A DNA stretch of 20,883 nucleotides, taken from the IMG/VR virus record IMGVR_UViG_3300003886_000052, positions 1 through 20,883 of that record. One strand, written 5' to 3'. Both the position numbers and the translations under genes were made by a program. Under the pieces are notes generated by a model. The model saw only the letters and a program-made list of their open reading frames with translations, had not been told where the DNA came from and made no database searches. This stretch comes from a virus. Below, piece after piece: positions 2 through 5,948 of the stretch (positions are counted from its first letter, which is position 1; each line of letters starts with the position of its first letter).

Positions 2-25
2 TATTCATTGGATGACAGTTTATGA
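2..25 (+). CDS. 3' end of an upstream CDS (partial)
   Basis: Only seven codons and a TGA stop are visible, reading YSLDDSL. The stop overlaps the ATG of the helicase in an ATGA arrangement, the same 4-nt coupling used at many junctions in this genome. That overlap is the only support. Another frame also ends early (TGA at 13-15), so the frame choice is uncertain and no function can be given. Confidence 0.3.
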   Translation, partial: YSLDDSL

Positions 26-1383
26 GCCAAAGTTGGCACCCCCATGAATATCAGCTAAGAGCTATGAAGCTTCTACTCTCGCAGGGGAGCGGAGGGCTTC
101 TTCTTGACCCCGGTCTGGGGAAGACTGCCATAGCCCTCGCAGCGTACAAGATATTACGAGACAAAGGGATGGCCCCAAAGGGGATGCTAGTTATCGCCCC
201 CCTACGACCCTGCTACAACGTCTGGCCTGACGAGATAGAAAAGTGGGCAGAATTCAACGACATAACTTATGCTGTCGTACATGGTGGAGATAAGGCTGCA
301 ATGCTCCGGGCAGATGTTGACATCCACATCATTAACCCGGAAGGGTTGAAGTGGCTATTCGCTGCCACAGCTTCGCACCGCAAGGAATGGACTATCCTGT
401 GTGTAGACGAGAGCACAAAATTCAAGAATTCTACCACCAAACGCTTCAAATTGATGCGGCCCCACTTCCCCAGATTTGCCCGGAGGTGGATACTGACAGG
501 TACTCCAATACCAAATGGTATAGAAGACCTATTCGGGCAAATATTCATATTGGACGAAGGGAGTGCCCTCGGCAAATATGTGACGCACTACCGGGCGAAG
601 TACTTTTATTCTAACGCTTGGGAGCCTTACAAGTTCTATGCCCAAGATGGAAGTTGGGGGAAGATTATGGCTAGGGTTGACCCACTGGTCCTTCGCCTAG
701 CTGCGAAAGACTATATAGACATGCCGCCCGTTTTACAAGAGCGGATATACGTCGACCTCCCAGAGACAGCAAGGGAGAAATACAGGGATATTGAAGATGA
801 GTTCATCACCCAGATTGAGGACGGAATCATCGTTGCGGCGAACGCAGCCGTGGCCGGAGGAAAGTGTAGACAAATCTGTAATGGAGCCATCTACACCAAC
901 AAGGAGCATGACTGGACGACGATCCACGATGCCAAACTTGACGCTATGGGAGATCTTCTTGAACAACTCGGAGGGGCTCCGCTTCTTATTATGTATGAAT
1001 TCAATCACGACAAAGAACGACTACTCGGACGCTTTGGCTCTTCAATCCCTATTCTTGGAGGAGGCACGTCGGCTGGAAAATCTGACCAGTACATACAGGA
1101 ATTCAATGCTGGGCAGCACCCGATAATGATTTGCCACCCTGCGTCAATGGCGCACGGCTTGAACCTGCAATCCGCTTGCCATCACATTTGTTGGTTCGGC
1201 ATAACTTGGAATCTTGAGTACTATGACCAAGCCAATGCCCGAATAAACAGACAGGGGCAAGAATTCCCAGTGTTCATCTACCACATACTCGCTAAGGACA
1301 CCCTAGACGATGTAGTGATGGATACTTTAGCTGAGAAGGACCACACACAGAAGAAGTTGTTTGCTTCGCTAACCACTTCTTGA
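22..1383 (+). CDS. SNF2-like superfamily 2 DNA helicase
   Basis: Predicted ATP-driven DNA translocase/helicase acting in phage replication, recombination or repair. Visible in order: a Q-motif-like stretch HPHEYQLRAM (residues 6-15); Walker A GLGKT (31-35, K34); motif II as DEST (129-132) rather than DEAH, which is common in phage SNF2-type proteins; motif III TGTP (159-162); motif V around HGLNLQ (378-383); and motif VI QANARINRQGQ (403-413) with the arginine finger. At 453 residues both RecA-like lobes appear complete. The ATG overlaps an upstream stop by 4 nt. It heads the rightward metabolic arm, and a gap with a promoter follows it. The family assignment is firm. The exact role (fork remodelling, recombination or transcription-coupled) is not readable from the sequence. 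Confidence 0.92.
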   Translation: MSQSWHPHEYQLRAMKLLLSQGSGGLLLDPGLGKTAIALAAYKILRDKGMAPKGMLVIAPLRPCYNVWPDEIEKWAEFNDITYAVVHGGDKAAMLRADVDIHIINPEGLKWLFAATASHRKEWTILCVDESTKFKNSTTKRFKLMRPHFPRFARRWILTGTPIPNGIEDLFGQIFILDEGSALGKYVTHYRAKYFYSNAWEPYKFYAQDGSWGKIMARVDPLVLRLAAKDYIDMPPVLQERIYVDLPETAREKYRDIEDEFITQIEDGIIVAANAAVAGGKCRQICNGAIYTNKEHDWTTIHDAKLDAMGDLLEQLGGAPLLIMYEFNHDKERLLGRFGSSIPILGGGTSAGKSDQYIQEFNAGQHPIMICHPASMAHGLNLQSACHHICWFGITWNLEYYDQANARINRQGQEFPVFIYHILAKDTLDDVVMDTLAEKDHTQKKLFASLTTS

Positions 1384-1461: not shown

Positions 1462-1788
1462 ATGGGAAAATCAAATGTTACGCCGCCGACCAAAGGTAAA
1501 GCTGACGCAAAGACGCCAGCAGCTGATGGTGAAAAGAAGCCCCGCGCCCCTCGGAAGAACTACGGGTACGCCAAAGGATCTGTCATCGCCCTAACGGATG
1601 GCGAACAAAAGTTCCGTGGCGCTCGTGCTCGTTGGTATGAGCATCTCCAGAAGGCTAGCGGCAAGACTGTGGAGCAATTCGCAGAGATCGCCGAGAAGGG
1701 CGGAGAGAAAGAGCAGCCTCGTGGCTGGCTCCGTTTCTTTGTTGAAGCAGAAGCCTGCACACTGACGCCGCCTCCGGCTGAAGCGTAA
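1462..1788 (+). CDS. Small basic Lys/Pro/Ala-tailed protein, function unknown
   Basis: A 108-residue protein I do not recognise. Residues 1-35 are a low-complexity, probably disordered basic tail rich in K, P and A (APRK at 29-32), resembling tails of nucleoid proteins. Residues 36-101 look folded: a KGSVIALTDGEQKFRGARARWYEH segment split around position 48, a helix near 68-79 and an aromatic stretch RGWLRFFVEAEA (87-98). The ATG has AAGGAG 6 nt upstream. It is the only gene in the arm with both its own promoter (1394-1422) and a clear intrinsic terminator (1795-1836), which implies high or early expression. A DNA-binding or host-takeover role fits but is inference. A long antisense frame over it is a shadow. 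Confidence 0.85.
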   Translation: MGKSNVTPPTKGKADAKTPAADGEKKPRAPRKNYGYAKGSVIALTDGEQKFRGARARWYEHLQKASGKTVEQFAEIAEKGGEKEQPRGWLRFFVEAEACTLTPPPAEA

Positions 1789-1848: not shown

Positions 1849-2010
1849 ATGAATACTGAGCAGAAATTAGCGGTAGCCAGACTTCTAAATCTCTTAATGG
1901 CTCTAGCGGTGAATGCAGACATGAGCGGCCAAGCCCACAAAGATATCTGGGCGGCTGCCGAAACATTTGGCATATCAAAGACTGATCTGTTGAAGGCTAT
2001 AGTCTTGTGA
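1849..2010 (+). CDS. 53-aa small protein, coupled to the glycosyltransferase
   Basis: The ATG has GGAG 8 nt upstream (1837-1840). The product is 53 residues, mostly helical by composition: MNTEQKLAVARLLNLLMALA (1-20), then a short polar turn, then a second helix around DIWAAAETFGISKTDLLKAI (32-51 region). The stop overlaps the GTG of the next gene as GTGA, so the two are probably translationally coupled. I do not recognise it. A small helical partner or regulator of the modification enzymes is possible but unsupported by homology. Good ribosome binding site and tight coupling argue that it is real. Confidence 0.7.
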   Translation: MNTEQKLAVARLLNLLMALAVNADMSGQAHKDIWAAAETFGISKTDLLKAIVL

Positions 2011-2828
2011 ACCTCTATATTATGACAAGAAACCGTGTAGGGCTTCAAAGAACCTACGCTTCAATACCGTGGTCCTGGCGGGACAAATGCTGGCTGGTCG
2101 TCCCAGAAAAGGAGCATGGAGTCCACTACACCTATAAGGGTGACGACCAAGCAAAAGAAATCCCCACCATTGCGGTGCCAGCCTCCGTCACTAACTACAG
2201 CGAAAAAATGAAGTGGATCATTGAAGACGGTATGCAAGACGGAAACGAATGCTGCGTCATCTTAGATGATGACCTCGTATTCAGCCACCAGTGGCTAAAG
2301 CCTGATGGGAAAATTGGGCTGAAAACATTAGAGGGAGAGACCACAGAACGGTTACTTTCCCTCTTCGGATATATGGAGATGTTACTTGAAGACACAGCAT
2401 TGGTGGGAGTCCACCCACGTCAAATGGGGCACATACAGAAGCCCCCCTATGTTGAAAACGGGAAAGTTATCTGCGTACAGGGGATTAATCGAAGCCTTGT
2501 GGGGGATATTCCTTATATTGACAAGTACCCTATCCTTTCTGACGTGGTGCTTAATGCAACTCTTCTAGCAAGAGGGCAGGGTAACAAAATCATTACTACA
2601 TTCTTTCAAGACTGGGGGAGCTGCAATGCTCCGGGCGGGTGTTCTACATACCGCACCCCCGAAATGCAAGCCGAAGCCTGTTACTGGCTAGAGGAGCGAT
2701 TCGGGCCTTACATCAAAGCTGTTGAAAAGGAGGCTAAAGATGGATGGTTGGGAGGTAAGCGCGTTGACTTTAGAGGTCAATGGAAAAAGCTATACAAGGC
2801 CGGAACTGCTGGCTTATTGGATATCTGA
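2007..2828 (+). CDS. GT-A-like glycosyltransferase, possibly of the TET-associated (TAGT) type
   Basis: Predicted nucleotide-sugar glycosyltransferase, 273 residues. It opens with a beta strand LYIMTRNR (3-10), as GT-A folds do. A DDD triad in VILDDDLVF (84-92) matches the DxD metal/nucleotide-sugar site. A C-terminal region with RTPEMQAEA (216-224) and a basic QWKKLYKAG (258-266) follows. The GTG start overlaps the previous stop by 4 nt. Its neighbours are a 5-hmdU-kinase-family protein, a MazG-like enzyme and a dUMP-hydroxymethylase-like enzyme. The most economical role is therefore adding sugar to hydroxymethylated or further modified pyrimidines in phage DNA. Glycosylation of surface structures is the main alternative. 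GT-like is reasonably secure; the base-modifying role is inference from context. Confidence 0.82.
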   Translation: MNLYIMTRNRVGLQRTYASIPWSWRDKCWLVVPEKEHGVHYTYKGDDQAKEIPTIAVPASVTNYSEKMKWIIEDGMQDGNECCVILDDDLVFSHQWLKPDGKIGLKTLEGETTERLLSLFGYMEMLLEDTALVGVHPRQMGHIQKPPYVENGKVICVQGINRSLVGDIPYIDKYPILSDVVLNATLLARGQGNKIITTFFQDWGSCNAPGGCSTYRTPEMQAEACYWLEERFGPYIKAVEKEAKDGWLGGKRVDFRGQWKKLYKAGTAGLLDI

Positions 2829-3588
2829 GCGTGAGCGGGTCCGACAGGCCAAAGAACGAGGGGACCCCCGACCTTGGTCATCTGATCTTGTGTTCCAAAA
2901 CACCTATTTCTGTAACGTTCACAGAGAAGACGATCGTGTTACAAGATGGGTCCGGGAAAACTATACTCCAGATATCTTCGGAGAGTACTATGAGGTTGCA
3001 ATCGTAGCTGCACGTCTCTTCAACAGGCCGGAAACGCTAGAGCAGATTAAGTTCACCCTAGTGCCCTCCCCCCACCTACAGTTGTGGGATTTGCTAAACA
3101 AGATGAAAGAAAACGAACAGCAAATCTGGAGCGGGGCGTATCTCATCACCACGCATGGCCGTAAGATGTCTAAGATAGACTACTGTGTGGAGCTTCTACA
3201 GAACTGTATAGACATCACCCCAGTCCATATGGAAGACCCCACCTGTGAGGGATACTTCCGTGCCTTCAAACGTATAGACGGTCTGGGCAGTTTCTTAAGT
3301 GCACAGATCGTTGCTGACCTAAAGAACACAGCACATCATCCCCTACAGGCAGCGACGGATTGGTACACTTTCAGTGCCCCCGGCCCCGGCTCTCTCCGCG
3401 GTCTGTCCTGGTTTCACAATCAAAGAATAACCCCCAGAGACTATCGTGGGGCTATCGAGAATGTGGCAGCCCACCTTGAATGGTCGGACTGTATGCAAGA
3501 CTTGCAGAACTGCATGTGTGAGTTCGACAAGTACTGTCGGGTCTTAACAGGTACGGGGCGGAGTAAGCGTAAGTATGCCGGGGTATGA
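2740..3588 (+). CDS. 5-hmdU DNA kinase / alpha-glutamyl-putrescinyl-thymine pyrophosphorylase family (helical domain) protein
   Basis: Member of the phage thymine-hypermodification family, 282 residues from the ATG at 2740. AAGGAGG at 2727-2733 sits 6 nt upstream, which favours this start over a TTG at 2722. Recognised features: a helix ending in ISERERVRQAKERGDPRPW (28-46), the signature FCNVHREDDRVTRW (57-70), a helix-hairpin-helix-like RIDGLGSFLSAQIVADL (178-194), APGPGSLRGL (213-222) and the C-terminal CMCEFDKYCR (258-267). Characterised relatives act on 5-hydroxymethyluracil in DNA, activating it for further substitution. No separate P-loop kinase domain is visible here, so the polypeptide may be only the helical, DNA-recognising part. 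It overlaps the glycosyltransferase by 89 nt. Family call is firm; the reaction is not. Confidence 0.88.
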   Translation: MDGWEVSALTLEVNGKSYTRPELLAYWISERERVRQAKERGDPRPWSSDLVFQNTYFCNVHREDDRVTRWVRENYTPDIFGEYYEVAIVAARLFNRPETLEQIKFTLVPSPHLQLWDLLNKMKENEQQIWSGAYLITTHGRKMSKIDYCVELLQNCIDITPVHMEDPTCEGYFRAFKRIDGLGSFLSAQIVADLKNTAHHPLQAATDWYTFSAPGPGSLRGLSWFHNQRITPRDYRGAIENVAAHLEWSDCMQDLQNCMCEFDKYCRVLTGTGRSKRKYAGV

Positions 3589-3610
3589 CGTAAAACGGCC
3601 CTACCAGACG

Positions 3611-3678
3611 CCGCTCGACAGCCAATCGCAATACGGCCCTTGCCTAGCTATGGCCCGGTTGCTCTGCTAGTCGAGTGG
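3611..3678. other. Intergenic long stem-loop
   Basis: In the 126-nt gap 3589-3714, CCGCTCGAC (3611-3619) pairs with GTCGAGTGG (3670-3678) over 9 bp with one G-T. Inside it, GCAA (3628-3631) pairs with TTGC (3659-3662) and GGCC (3635-3638) with GGCC (3652-3655). No U-tract follows, so it is a poor terminator. It could be a processing or stability element between the modification genes. The downstream TTTATAAAA (near 3694) is AT-rich but has no good -35. Nothing else is seen in this gap. Confidence 0.45.
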
Positions 3679-3714
3679 CTTACCTTAAAACCTTTATAAA
3701 ACAAGGGGTTACGC

Positions 3715-4029
3715 ATGTCAGAAGAAGAATTAGAGCGCCTAGCCCTCTTAGCAGAGGAGTGCGCAGAAGTGATAGTAGCTGTAGGGAAGATTCTACGGCA
3801 CGGGTATCAGTCATACAACCCTTTCCACTCAGAGTTAGGGAGCAATAAGGAACAGCTAGAAGCAGAGATTGCTGATGTTTGGTATGCAGTGAATCTTATG
3901 TTGGGGTGTGGTGATGTAGATATAGACGAAATAAATCATCACCTTGAACTAGCTGCGAAGTCTAAGCCCAAGTATCTGCATTACCAAAAGAGAGATATGC
4001 TAGACAGCCTCAAGGAGAAGGTGAAGTGA
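3715..4029 (+). CDS. MazG-like nucleoside triphosphate pyrophosphohydrolase
   Basis: Predicted cytosolic enzyme hydrolysing NTPs/dNTPs to the monophosphate and pyrophosphate. The 104-residue all-alpha protein has the MazG metal motif: E14-E15-x-x-E18 in LAEECAEV and E51-x-x-D54 in EAEIADVW. Its length fits the single-domain MazG-like phage family. AAGGGG precedes the ATG. Its stop overlaps the GTG of the thymidylate-synthase-like gene in GTGA. That pairing suggests it supplies dUMP from dUTP, or removes dTTP/unmodified pyrimidine triphosphates so that modified nucleotides are used. A broader role, such as lowering (p)ppGpp as proposed for some phage MazG proteins, is also possible. Confidence 0.9.
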   Translation: MSEEELERLALLAEECAEVIVAVGKILRHGYQSYNPFHSELGSNKEQLEAEIADVWYAVNLMLGCGDVDIDEINHHLELAAKSKPKYLHYQKRDMLDSLKEKVK

Positions 4030-4997
4030 TCATTGAAATTACAGGGCGAAATGCGCCTCAAGCATATATAGATGGTTTGTACAAGTTCCGTGCAGCAGCC
4101 AGATCAGAGATTACTCGGGGGGGAGAGGCGATGGTGCTTCCCGCTCCGGTCTTCTTAACGGTACAATTTCCTGAGGAGCGTCTACTCAATTGCCCTGTCA
4201 GAAGAGCTAACCCATTCTTCCACTGCATGGAGTTCGTGTGGATGATGGCAGGGTCTAACAATGCTCACTGGATATCTCGGTACAACAAGCAGATGATGGA
4301 GTACAGCGATGACGGAATACTCCGGGGGGCTTATGGATACCGATGGGCCAACCCAATCTTTCAGATACCGCAGGTTATTGAGCTCCTCCGCAAAGAGCCA
4401 GAAACAAGACAAGCTGTTCTGTCAATGTGGGATCCCGTACACGACGGGGCCAATGCCCAGACAAGCGACCGCCCCTGCAACACTCACATCTACTTTAGAG
4501 TAGATGAAACCGACTCCCTCAATATGACGGTATGCAACCGGAGCAACGATTTTGTCTGGGGGATGATGGGGGCGAACGTAGTTCACATGACTATGCTTCA
4601 AGAATTAATCGCCCTAGCCGCAGGATACAAGATAGGGATGTATCATGTGTTCAGCAATAATGTTCATGTATACACCAACCTCCCCCGGTTTGATGCTATC
4701 TACAACACGACCCTAGACGCTGACATATACAAAGGGATTAACCGATGTGAGGACCTCCTCCCTCTGATAGCTAAGGAAGAAATATATCACGAGTTTATTG
4801 AAGACTGTAAAGACTTTGTGGATGGGGCGGAGCAATTCCGTACTGACTGGATGAACGGGGTTGCCTACCCGATTAAGATGGCTTGGAATGATAAGAAAAA
4901 CAGGAATACTTGGATAAATGAAATCCTAGCAGCGGACTGGCACATCTGTTGTCAGGATTGGGAATACCGACGTCGGGGAAGGATTAAATTGAATTAG
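4026..4997 (+). CDS. Thymidylate synthase family, probable dUMP hydroxymethylase
   Basis: Predicted folate-dependent enzyme acting on C5 of a pyrimidine nucleotide, 323 residues. Visible: RGAYGYRW (100-107), nucleophile C151 in RPCNTH, NRSND (171-175), GANVVH (182-187) and HVYTN (214-218), matching ThyA's phosphate-binding, catalytic and nucleotide-binding stretches. The NRSND...WG..GAN...H block is typical of the phage clade that includes dUMP hydroxymethylases. The Asn in GAN (N184) argues for a uracil substrate, because dCMP hydroxymethylases use Asp there. The GTG start has AAGGAG 8 nt upstream and is coupled to MazG. With the helical-domain and glycosyltransferase genes nearby, making 5-hydroxymethyl-dUMP is likelier than plain dTMP synthesis. 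ThyA-like methylation cannot be excluded from sequence alone. Confidence 0.92.
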   Translation: MIIEITGRNAPQAYIDGLYKFRAAARSEITRGGEAMVLPAPVFLTVQFPEERLLNCPVRRANPFFHCMEFVWMMAGSNNAHWISRYNKQMMEYSDDGILRGAYGYRWANPIFQIPQVIELLRKEPETRQAVLSMWDPVHDGANAQTSDRPCNTHIYFRVDETDSLNMTVCNRSNDFVWGMMGANVVHMTMLQELIALAAGYKIGMYHVFSNNVHVYTNLPRFDAIYNTTLDADIYKGINRCEDLLPLIAKEEIYHEFIEDCKDFVDGAEQFRTDWMNGVAYPIKMAWNDKKNRNTWINEILAADWHICCQDWEYRRRGRIKLN

Positions 4998-5856: not shown

Positions 5857-5948
5857 CAGTATTCGGGCTTGTAGCTCAGTTGGTTAGAGCAAGGGGCTCA
5901 TAACCCCTAGGTCTCAGGTTCGATCCCTGACAAGCCCACCAAATACTG
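5857..5948 (+). other. Leader-trailer helix extending the pre-tRNA acceptor stem
   Basis: CAGTATT (5857-5863) just before the tRNA is exactly complementary to AATACTG (5942-5948) just after its CCA. This extends the acceptor stem by 7 bp across a small internal loop (C5864 opposite 5938-5941). A competing hairpin, CCGAATA (5841-5847) with TATTCGG (5860-5866), would take up the same leader bases and the first two tRNA bases. The symmetry about the mature ends makes chance unlikely. A role in precursor folding or processing is inference. Confidence 0.5.
5865..5941 (+). tRNA. tRNA with CAT anticodon (elongator Met or lysidine-type Ile)
   Basis: Full cloverleaf: acceptor GGGCTTG/CAAGCCC, D stem GCTC/GAGC with GTTGGTTA-type loop, anticodon stem AGGGG/CCCCT around CTCATAA (anticodon CAT), 5-nt variable loop, T stem TCAGG/CCTGA with TTCGATC loop, discriminator A5938 and encoded CCA (5939-5941). 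G1-C72 pairing and C11-G24 exclude a normal initiator. The anticodon stem nevertheless has the three consecutive G-C pairs (29-31/39-41) characteristic of initiators. CAT with CTCATAA can be elongator Met or tRNA-Ile2 that needs lysidine modification; I cannot decide which. A candidate promoter lies at 5748-5775. Confidence 0.95.

Follow-up and report, generated by a model that had tools for sequence, protein, structure and literature searches.

What does the gene cluster at positions 2007-4997 of IMGVR_UViG_3300003886_000052 do to the DNA of the phage that carries it? We analysed positions 1-20,883 of this record, the whole 20,883-nt stretch (the window), which is a genome fragment that has no polymerase gene of its own. 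A sequence-only reading had proposed that four neighbouring genes in this interval form a coherent path ending in a sugar-bearing thymine. All four genes were found there, adjacent, on the + strand and in the order glycosyltransferase (GT), HMUDK_hel protein (HEL), MazG-like protein and thymidylate synthase (TS) homologue; a search for DNA-level relatives among named phages returned none. The genes of the cluster and its neighbours are as follows.

22..1383, + strand: SNF2-family helicase (PF00176 3e-25, phrog_62 1.9e-137)
1462..1788, + strand: small Lys/Pro/Ala-tailed protein, a conserved neighbour of the SNF2 gene
2007..2828, + strand: GT, TAGT-family glycosyltransferase of the GT-A type, 273 aa (phrog_842 1.1e-19)
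2740..3588, + strand: HEL, HMUDK_hel (PF18723), 282 aa (PF18723 E about 1.2e-31 to 1.4e-31)
3715..4029, + strand: MazG-like all-alpha NTP pyrophosphohydrolase, 104 aa (phrog_4856 5.5e-16)
4026..4997, + strand: TS homologue, predicted dUMP hydroxymethylase, 323 aa (PF00303 E 7.6e-21; phrog_5131 E 1.2e-80)

We consider it fairly probable that this cluster encodes the sugar branch of a phage 5-hmdU pathway, in which, as predicted from its genes, 5-hmdU would be incorporated at replication and then O-glycosylated in DNA. GT, HEL and TS occur together in 100 viral loci (part of them from near-identical phages), so their association in the window is not due to chance. Of the four genes assigned to the path, these three make up the recurrent module; the MazG-like gene is not a conserved member.

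M6-type hypermodification, found in Pseudomonas phage M6 and its relatives, combines a TS, a 5-hmdU DNA kinase, HMUDK_hel and an amino-acid:DNA transferase. The window shares with the M6 type its TS clade (by residues), the HEL family and a similar gene neighbourhood, but in the GT branch neither the kinase (PF18748) nor the transferase (PF18724) was found, and a TAGT enzyme sits in the slot. The locus survey that yielded the 100 GT, HEL and TS loci contained no locus with both a GT and a kinase. Among 66 HEL-seeded loci, taken where at least 1.5 kb of upstream sequence was present, 33 held a GT, 25 a kinase, 8 neither and 0 both (Fisher p 2.6e-11 for the exclusion of GT and kinase, with related loci counted as independent). 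On the HEL tree we counted 10 partner switches, 8 of which are forced by supported branches. The GT and HEL genes overlap by 89 nt in the window, with a median of -61 bp across loci, and the slot gene of one further locus (L124) gave a weak glycosyltransferase-4 match. Judged from these gene neighbourhoods, the GT fills the slot held by the 5-hmdU DNA kinase in M6-type phages. The mutual exclusion of kinase and GT strengthens the prediction of a sugar on thymine, which the present analysis supports.

We next consider the constant member of these loci. HEL starts at an ATG at 2740 preceded by AAGGAGG, and its PF18723 match covers profile positions 6-276 of 281, the whole length, in agreement with the family assignment made earlier; the signature FCNVHREDDRVTRW cited for it is present in the translation. 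Its AF2 model (pLDDT 92.8) likely has a HhH DNA-glycosylase fold: the 50 matches listed in a fold comparison (VIA-align) were HhH DNA glycosylase-type or queuine-salvage DUF2419 enzymes at Z about 6-9.5, though these matches are weak (Foldseek E >0.5; Z <13 for a helical protein). Across 116 proteins the invariant charged residues are the same with a kinase or a GT partner, namely R31, R62, D65, K145, D193, D207 (115/116 proteins), E261 and K264. HEL is probably an interchangeable partner with a putative role in 5-hmU-DNA recognition. Our tentative extension of this, held at slightly less than even confidence, is that HEL may act as a general subunit for docking to 5-hmU DNA or flipping the base, plugged into a kinase, a TAGT or another GT type at one slot, which would make the window branch a phage counterpart of base J. 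HEL is not strictly required, because two kinase-type loci (L037 and L039) and one GT phage (L036, MW202897) lack it. The name HMUDK does not describe the GT branch, since the kinase PF18748 is not found there.

The same residues could instead form an active site, with HEL itself catalytic and the kinase or GT acting before or after it. So many invariant charged residues with either partner, the likely enzyme-like glycosylase fold and the sequence-inferred location of D207 at about the catalytic Asp of HhH glycosylases speak for this idea, but the usual HhH position, read from the sequence, lacks the lyase Lys, loci without HEL occur in both the kinase and the GT type, and unrestrained base excision would harm phage DNA. 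We regard a catalytic HEL as unlikely, and prefer its putative recognition role.

The window could alternatively derive from an amino-acid-type hypermodification system in which the GT only decorates the product of two enzymes encoded elsewhere in the genome, an amino-acid:DNA transferase and a 5-hmdU DNA kinase. HEL and TS are common to the M6-type pathway and the window is only a genome fragment, two points in favour of this alternative. No kinase PF18748 was found near the window module. Neither PF18748 nor PF18724 was detected in 19 longer records (17 with a GT, ~35-60 kb, and 2 with another slot gene), whereas the same search detected the kinase in 6 of 7 kinase-type control records, and our own profiles for kinase and transferase found no match in the near-complete relatives. 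Absence of the kinase is no proof, because IMG/VR records may be incomplete, though with most controls positive we judge the amino-acid alternative improbable and retain glycosylation of 5-hmU as the predicted chemistry.

The glycosyltransferase itself is a divergent TAGT member, since the window protein alone gave no match in Pfam, TAGT included. The Pfam TAGT profile (PF20691) matched 50 of its 57 aligned relatives, a profile-profile comparison with TAGT proteins aligned 251 columns (hhalign, 100%, E 1.6e-40), and its PHROG match, phrog_842 (1.1e-19), is a beta-glucosyl-HMC-alpha-glucosyltransferase; the TAGT assignment rests on these relatives and the PHROG. The protein carries a DDD metal motif at 87-89 that is invariant among its relatives, a conserved D179 and GGC at 210-212. 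Its AF2 model (pLDDT 92.7) has a GT-A fold, as had been suggested, and aligned with GT-A structures at Z 11-13 (13.4 for ppGalNAcT-2); PDB sequence searches with the GT and HEL profiles gave nothing useful. In the profile comparison the enzyme falls in TAGT and not among surface-polysaccharide enzymes. Phage glycosyltransferases that act on virion proteins or the host surface exist (PMC12619734), and with such a target the DNA would carry only TS-made 5-hmdU. This is highly improbable for a TAGT enzyme whose gene overlaps HEL, adjoins TS (100 loci) and occupies the kinase slot. We predict, from sequence comparison, that the GT is a 5-hmU-DNA glycosyltransferase.

The catalytic residues of the TS homologue include the nucleophile C151 and N184, which was reported as kept, is present in the translation and corresponds to E. 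coli N177. An Asn at this position marks a uracil, not a cytosine, substrate. The Asn and the catalytic Cys are invariant in 62 TS relatives; the Cys together with E58, R126, R166, D169, H207 and Y209 is identical across the window TS and 61 relatives. In E. coli numbering, N177, N147, D143 and P51 are common to the window TS, M6 and SPO1 gp29, a comparison sequence recorded as a dUMP hydroxymethylase, whereas ThyA has H147, L143 and H51 at the same sites. A TS tree with ThyA and T4 references was not used for placement because its branches are very long; placement rests on the residues. These active-site residues agree with the dUMP hydroxymethylase proposed at the outset, and the protein is a predicted enzyme of this kind, not a ThyA nor a T4-type dCMP enzyme. 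Both placements named beforehand as refuting the sequence-only reading, a TS among true ThyA enzymes and a GT among surface-polysaccharide enzymes, thus went the other way. That it is an ordinary thymidylate synthase or dCMP hydroxymethylase within a nucleotide-salvage or cytosine-modification island, as superfamily membership and the label ‘predicted dCMP-hydroxymethylase’ used by the LuckyBarnes authors (PMC6588365) would allow, is hardly credible. We rejected dCMP chemistry because the window TS keeps Asn177, a residue missing both from T4 gp42 and from the enzyme of the Raoultella phage. The window TS also lacks the ThyA-specific H147 and L143, and its close annotated relatives, from M6-like and Bordetella phages, are TS/dUMP hydroxymethylases.

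We propose the following order of events. Judging by its active site, the TS homologue would hydroxymethylate dUMP to 5-hmdUMP, which cellular kinases would convert to 5-hmdUTP for insertion at T positions by the phage polymerase, while the MazG protein would probably clear a dNTP that competes with it, for example dTTP. Once the DNA is replicated, the TAGT enzyme would move a sugar to the 5-hydroxymethyl oxygen of 5-hmU in it; the donor is probably a UDP-sugar of the host, since no sugar-nucleotide genes were among the Pfam matches of one relative (40.9 kb, 43 ORFs). From family, synteny and kinase replacement we infer the product to be a base J-like 5-(glycosyloxymethyl)uracil. More tentatively, given its likely DNA-glycosylase fold, HEL may recognise or flip 5-hmU in DNA for the kinase or the GT. 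If this pathway is correct, the phage DNA would resist restriction enzymes that read T-containing sites.

Each known system shares part of this scheme. SPO1-type 5-hmU phages have a dUMP hydroxymethylase active site like that of the window TS, and in the 49 kb of SPO1 examined neither a glycosyltransferase nor a HEL is annotated close to gp29. Base J is made by JBP1/2, which hydroxylate T in DNA, followed by a separate glucosyltransferase; the window phage would instead incorporate 5-hmU at replication. The likeness lies in the predicted product type only, base J of trypanosomatids being a sugar on 5-hydroxymethyluracil (PMC6449724). The T2/T6 enzymes belong to the same TAGT family (PF20691) as the window GT, and a T2/T6 member glucosylates phage DNA – though the base is hydroxymethylcytosine, the hydroxymethylase lacks Asn177, and the enzyme puts a second sugar, glucose, on already glucosylated hmC rather than a first sugar on hmU (PMC13216743). 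In a Raoultella phage a TAGT likewise adjoins a TS-superfamily hydroxymethylase, and no HEL was found in the stretch around it.

Similar gene combinations have been noted in pelagiphage HTVC023P-type clusters (PMC9599517) and in Brevibacterium phage LuckyBarnes (PMC6588365), whose gene order is TS-GT-GT-HEL with two GT genes. The consulted parts of these papers report co-occurrence and describe no kinase replacement or partner switching, and the LuckyBarnes authors read the chemistry as dCMP-based. The suggestion that the system may be new therefore stands for the predicted chemistry and the slot-swap logic, and not for the gene combination. No report of glycosylated 5-hmU in phage DNA was found in the literature surveyed, which did not extend to Lee 2018, 2022, Iyer 2013 or Pyle 2024. 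LuckyBarnes, an isolated phage that bears the module, makes the predicted chemistry directly testable, and the repeated swapping of kinase and GT around a constant HEL offers an evolutionary argument on the role of the so-called kinase helical domain.

The remaining genes are accessory. The MazG-like protein matched PRA-PH in Pfam (E 1.4e-4, 22.7 bits against a cut-off of 21.3), with MazG just under its own cut-off. It lies between HEL and TS in the window only and is absent from this slot in relatives, which rejects it as a core part of the module; it is probably an optional, predicted trimmer of the dNTP pool. The small basic protein at 1462-1788 was first counted in 71 of 124 loci of the GT type and in 1 of 35 of the kinase type, but in kinase loci, too, this gap holds a comparable protein with a Lys/Pro tail, and we rejected the small basic protein as a GT-specific partner. 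The SNF2 helicase gene is a recurrent neighbour of the module in GT phages and many kinase phages, and its product is outside the modification chemistry.

The window, a virus record of 20,883 bases, carries a compact run of genes on its plus strand that includes a glycosyltransferase (GT), a protein with an HMUDK_hel domain (HEL), a MazG-like pyrophosphohydrolase and a thymidylate synthase homologue (TS); its minus strand carries structural and lysis genes. The plus-strand genes of interest are as follows.

22-1383, plus strand: SNF2 helicase
1462-1788, plus strand: small basic protein
2007-2828, plus strand: GT, assigned to phrog_842, with no Pfam match in the family search
from the ATG at 2740, plus strand: HEL, Pfam HMUDK_hel
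3715-4029, plus strand: MazG-like protein, assigned mainly by PHROG
4026-4997, plus strand: TS, thymidylate synthase superfamily

The GT and HEL genes overlap by 89 nt, with an AAGGAGG a short way 5' of the HEL start codon, and the start of TS overlaps the 3' end of the MazG gene. The small protein, whose gene has the SNF2 helicase on one side and the modification genes on the other, is conserved and has a tail rich in Lys, Pro and Ala; a protein resembling it occupies the same place in phages that encode the 5-hmdU DNA kinase. A tRNA-Met gene (CAT) at 5865-5941 separates the plus-strand gene block from the minus-strand one.

The glycosyltransferase was assigned to the TAGT family through its relatives. 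The Pfam TAGT family matched 50 of 57 aligned relatives, though not the window protein alone, and a profile built from its close clade matched a small TAGT set in a profile-profile comparison with 100% probability (E 1.6e-40). The window protein retains the DDD motif, D179 and GGC. Its AlphaFold model (pLDDT 92.7) has a GT-A fold, and the nearest structure is ppGalNAc-T2 (Z 13.4). The TAGT of T2/T6 is the enzyme that adds a second glucose to hmC (PMC13216743).

Synthase residues are numbered here after E. coli ThyA. The window TS retains the catalytic Cys and the remaining shared TS residues, and it also has Asn177 (uracil), which is missing from T4 gp42 and from the dCMP-type enzyme of a Raoultella phage. 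Neither this Asn nor the Cys varies among 62 relatives. N147, D143 and P51 are common to the window TS, M6 and SPO1 gp29, the last annotated as a dUMP hydroxymethylase; ThyA has H147, L143 and H51 at those positions. The nearest relatives among named phages include M6-like and Bordetella phages, some of which carry the annotation thymidylate synthase/deoxyuridylate hydroxymethyltransferase. Judged from its residues, the predicted function of the window TS is best read as dUMP hydroxymethylation.

Across related viruses, the position immediately before HEL is filled in most loci by either of two genes. Eight purpose-built profiles were used to sort 169 distinct loci: 100 had GT, HEL and TS together (a count that includes some near-identical phages), 32 had HEL, TS and the kinase of M6-type thymidine hypermodification, with or without the amino-acid:DNA transferase of that pathway, and none was classified as having GT alongside the kinase. 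To curb seeding bias, we retained loci found through HEL that had at least 1.5 kb of upstream sequence; of these, 33 had GT, 25 had the kinase, 8 had neither and 0 had both (Fisher p 2.6e-11, relatedness ignored). Since that p-value disregards relatedness, the HEL tree is the better measure: it records 10 partner changes, and strong branch support makes 8 of these unavoidable; a second analysis agrees. The data show that GT and kinase exclude one another and that partners have been switched, and they likewise show the identity and conservation of the module genes.

Neither the kinase nor the transferase was found by Pfam across the entire length of 17 GT records – including those of the Brevibacterium phage LuckyBarnes and of the GT phage MW202897, both deposited as complete – or across two records with another gene before HEL. 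Among seven kinase-type control records, Pfam detected the kinase in 6 and the transferase in 4, and the one missed kinase sets a limit on the sensitivity of the search. The purpose-built profiles agree with Pfam, finding no kinase or transferase in the near-complete relatives.

HEL is common to both arrangements. Its model (pLDDT 92.8) resembles HhH-type DNA glycosylases and queuine-salvage DUF2419 enzymes, with Z at most 9.5 among the 50 matches listed. HEL likely adopts an HhH-type DNA glycosylase fold, a grading that stops short of proven because Foldseek alone gave a result below significance for the model. An alignment position is conserved to 93% or more at 29 sites across 116 HEL proteins, among them R31, N59, R62, D65, K145, F185, D193, D207, GPG 215-217, C260, E261 and K264, and conservation among these proteins is the same with either partner. 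As read from the sequence, D207 would sit about where HhH glycosylases have their Asp, and a hydrophobic residue appears to occupy their lyase Lys position. One GT genome (MW202897) and two kinase loci lack HEL, which is easier to reconcile with a role in specificity or as an accessory than with an essential catalytic one. A preference for TG sites has been reported for the M6 kinase (PMC6449724).

In the pathway that we propose, 5-hmdUMP would be synthesized, 5-hmdU would be incorporated into DNA and O-glycosylation would then take place within the DNA. HEL would serve in recognition, MazG may act in the dNTP pool, and the predicted outcome is protection from restriction.

Four of the eight loci with neither partner (L124, L155, L156 and L173) have a long gene immediately before HEL. 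In three of them it is placed as follows.

L124, 8728-10002: weak matches to GT-B families
L155, 9033-9986: GT-B-like by eye only, with no match in Pfam or PHROG
L156, 9042-9992: GT-B-like by eye only

In L173 (8039-9984), a stand-alone radical SAM/SPASM gene is followed by a gene, GT-B-like by eye, that immediately precedes HEL and TS; this locus has neither TAGT nor kinase, and a different type of modification may occupy the position here. Primase-like and UvrD-like helicase genes precede HEL in L138, L139, L140 and L013, which have HEL and TS with no GT or kinase nearby.

Other loci elaborate on the TAGT gene. L053 (3324-5060) encodes a radical SAM/SPASM domain fused to a TAGT glycosyltransferase (PF20691 7e-19, PF04055 9e-12, PF13186 1e-9) and adjoining HEL and TS, which suggests that the sugar or base is remodelled further through radical chemistry. 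LuckyBarnes has two TAGT genes, gp40 and gp39, beside HEL and TS (L035, 7989-9600), as do the genomes of L082, L089 and L104; these pairs suggest a two-sugar modification.
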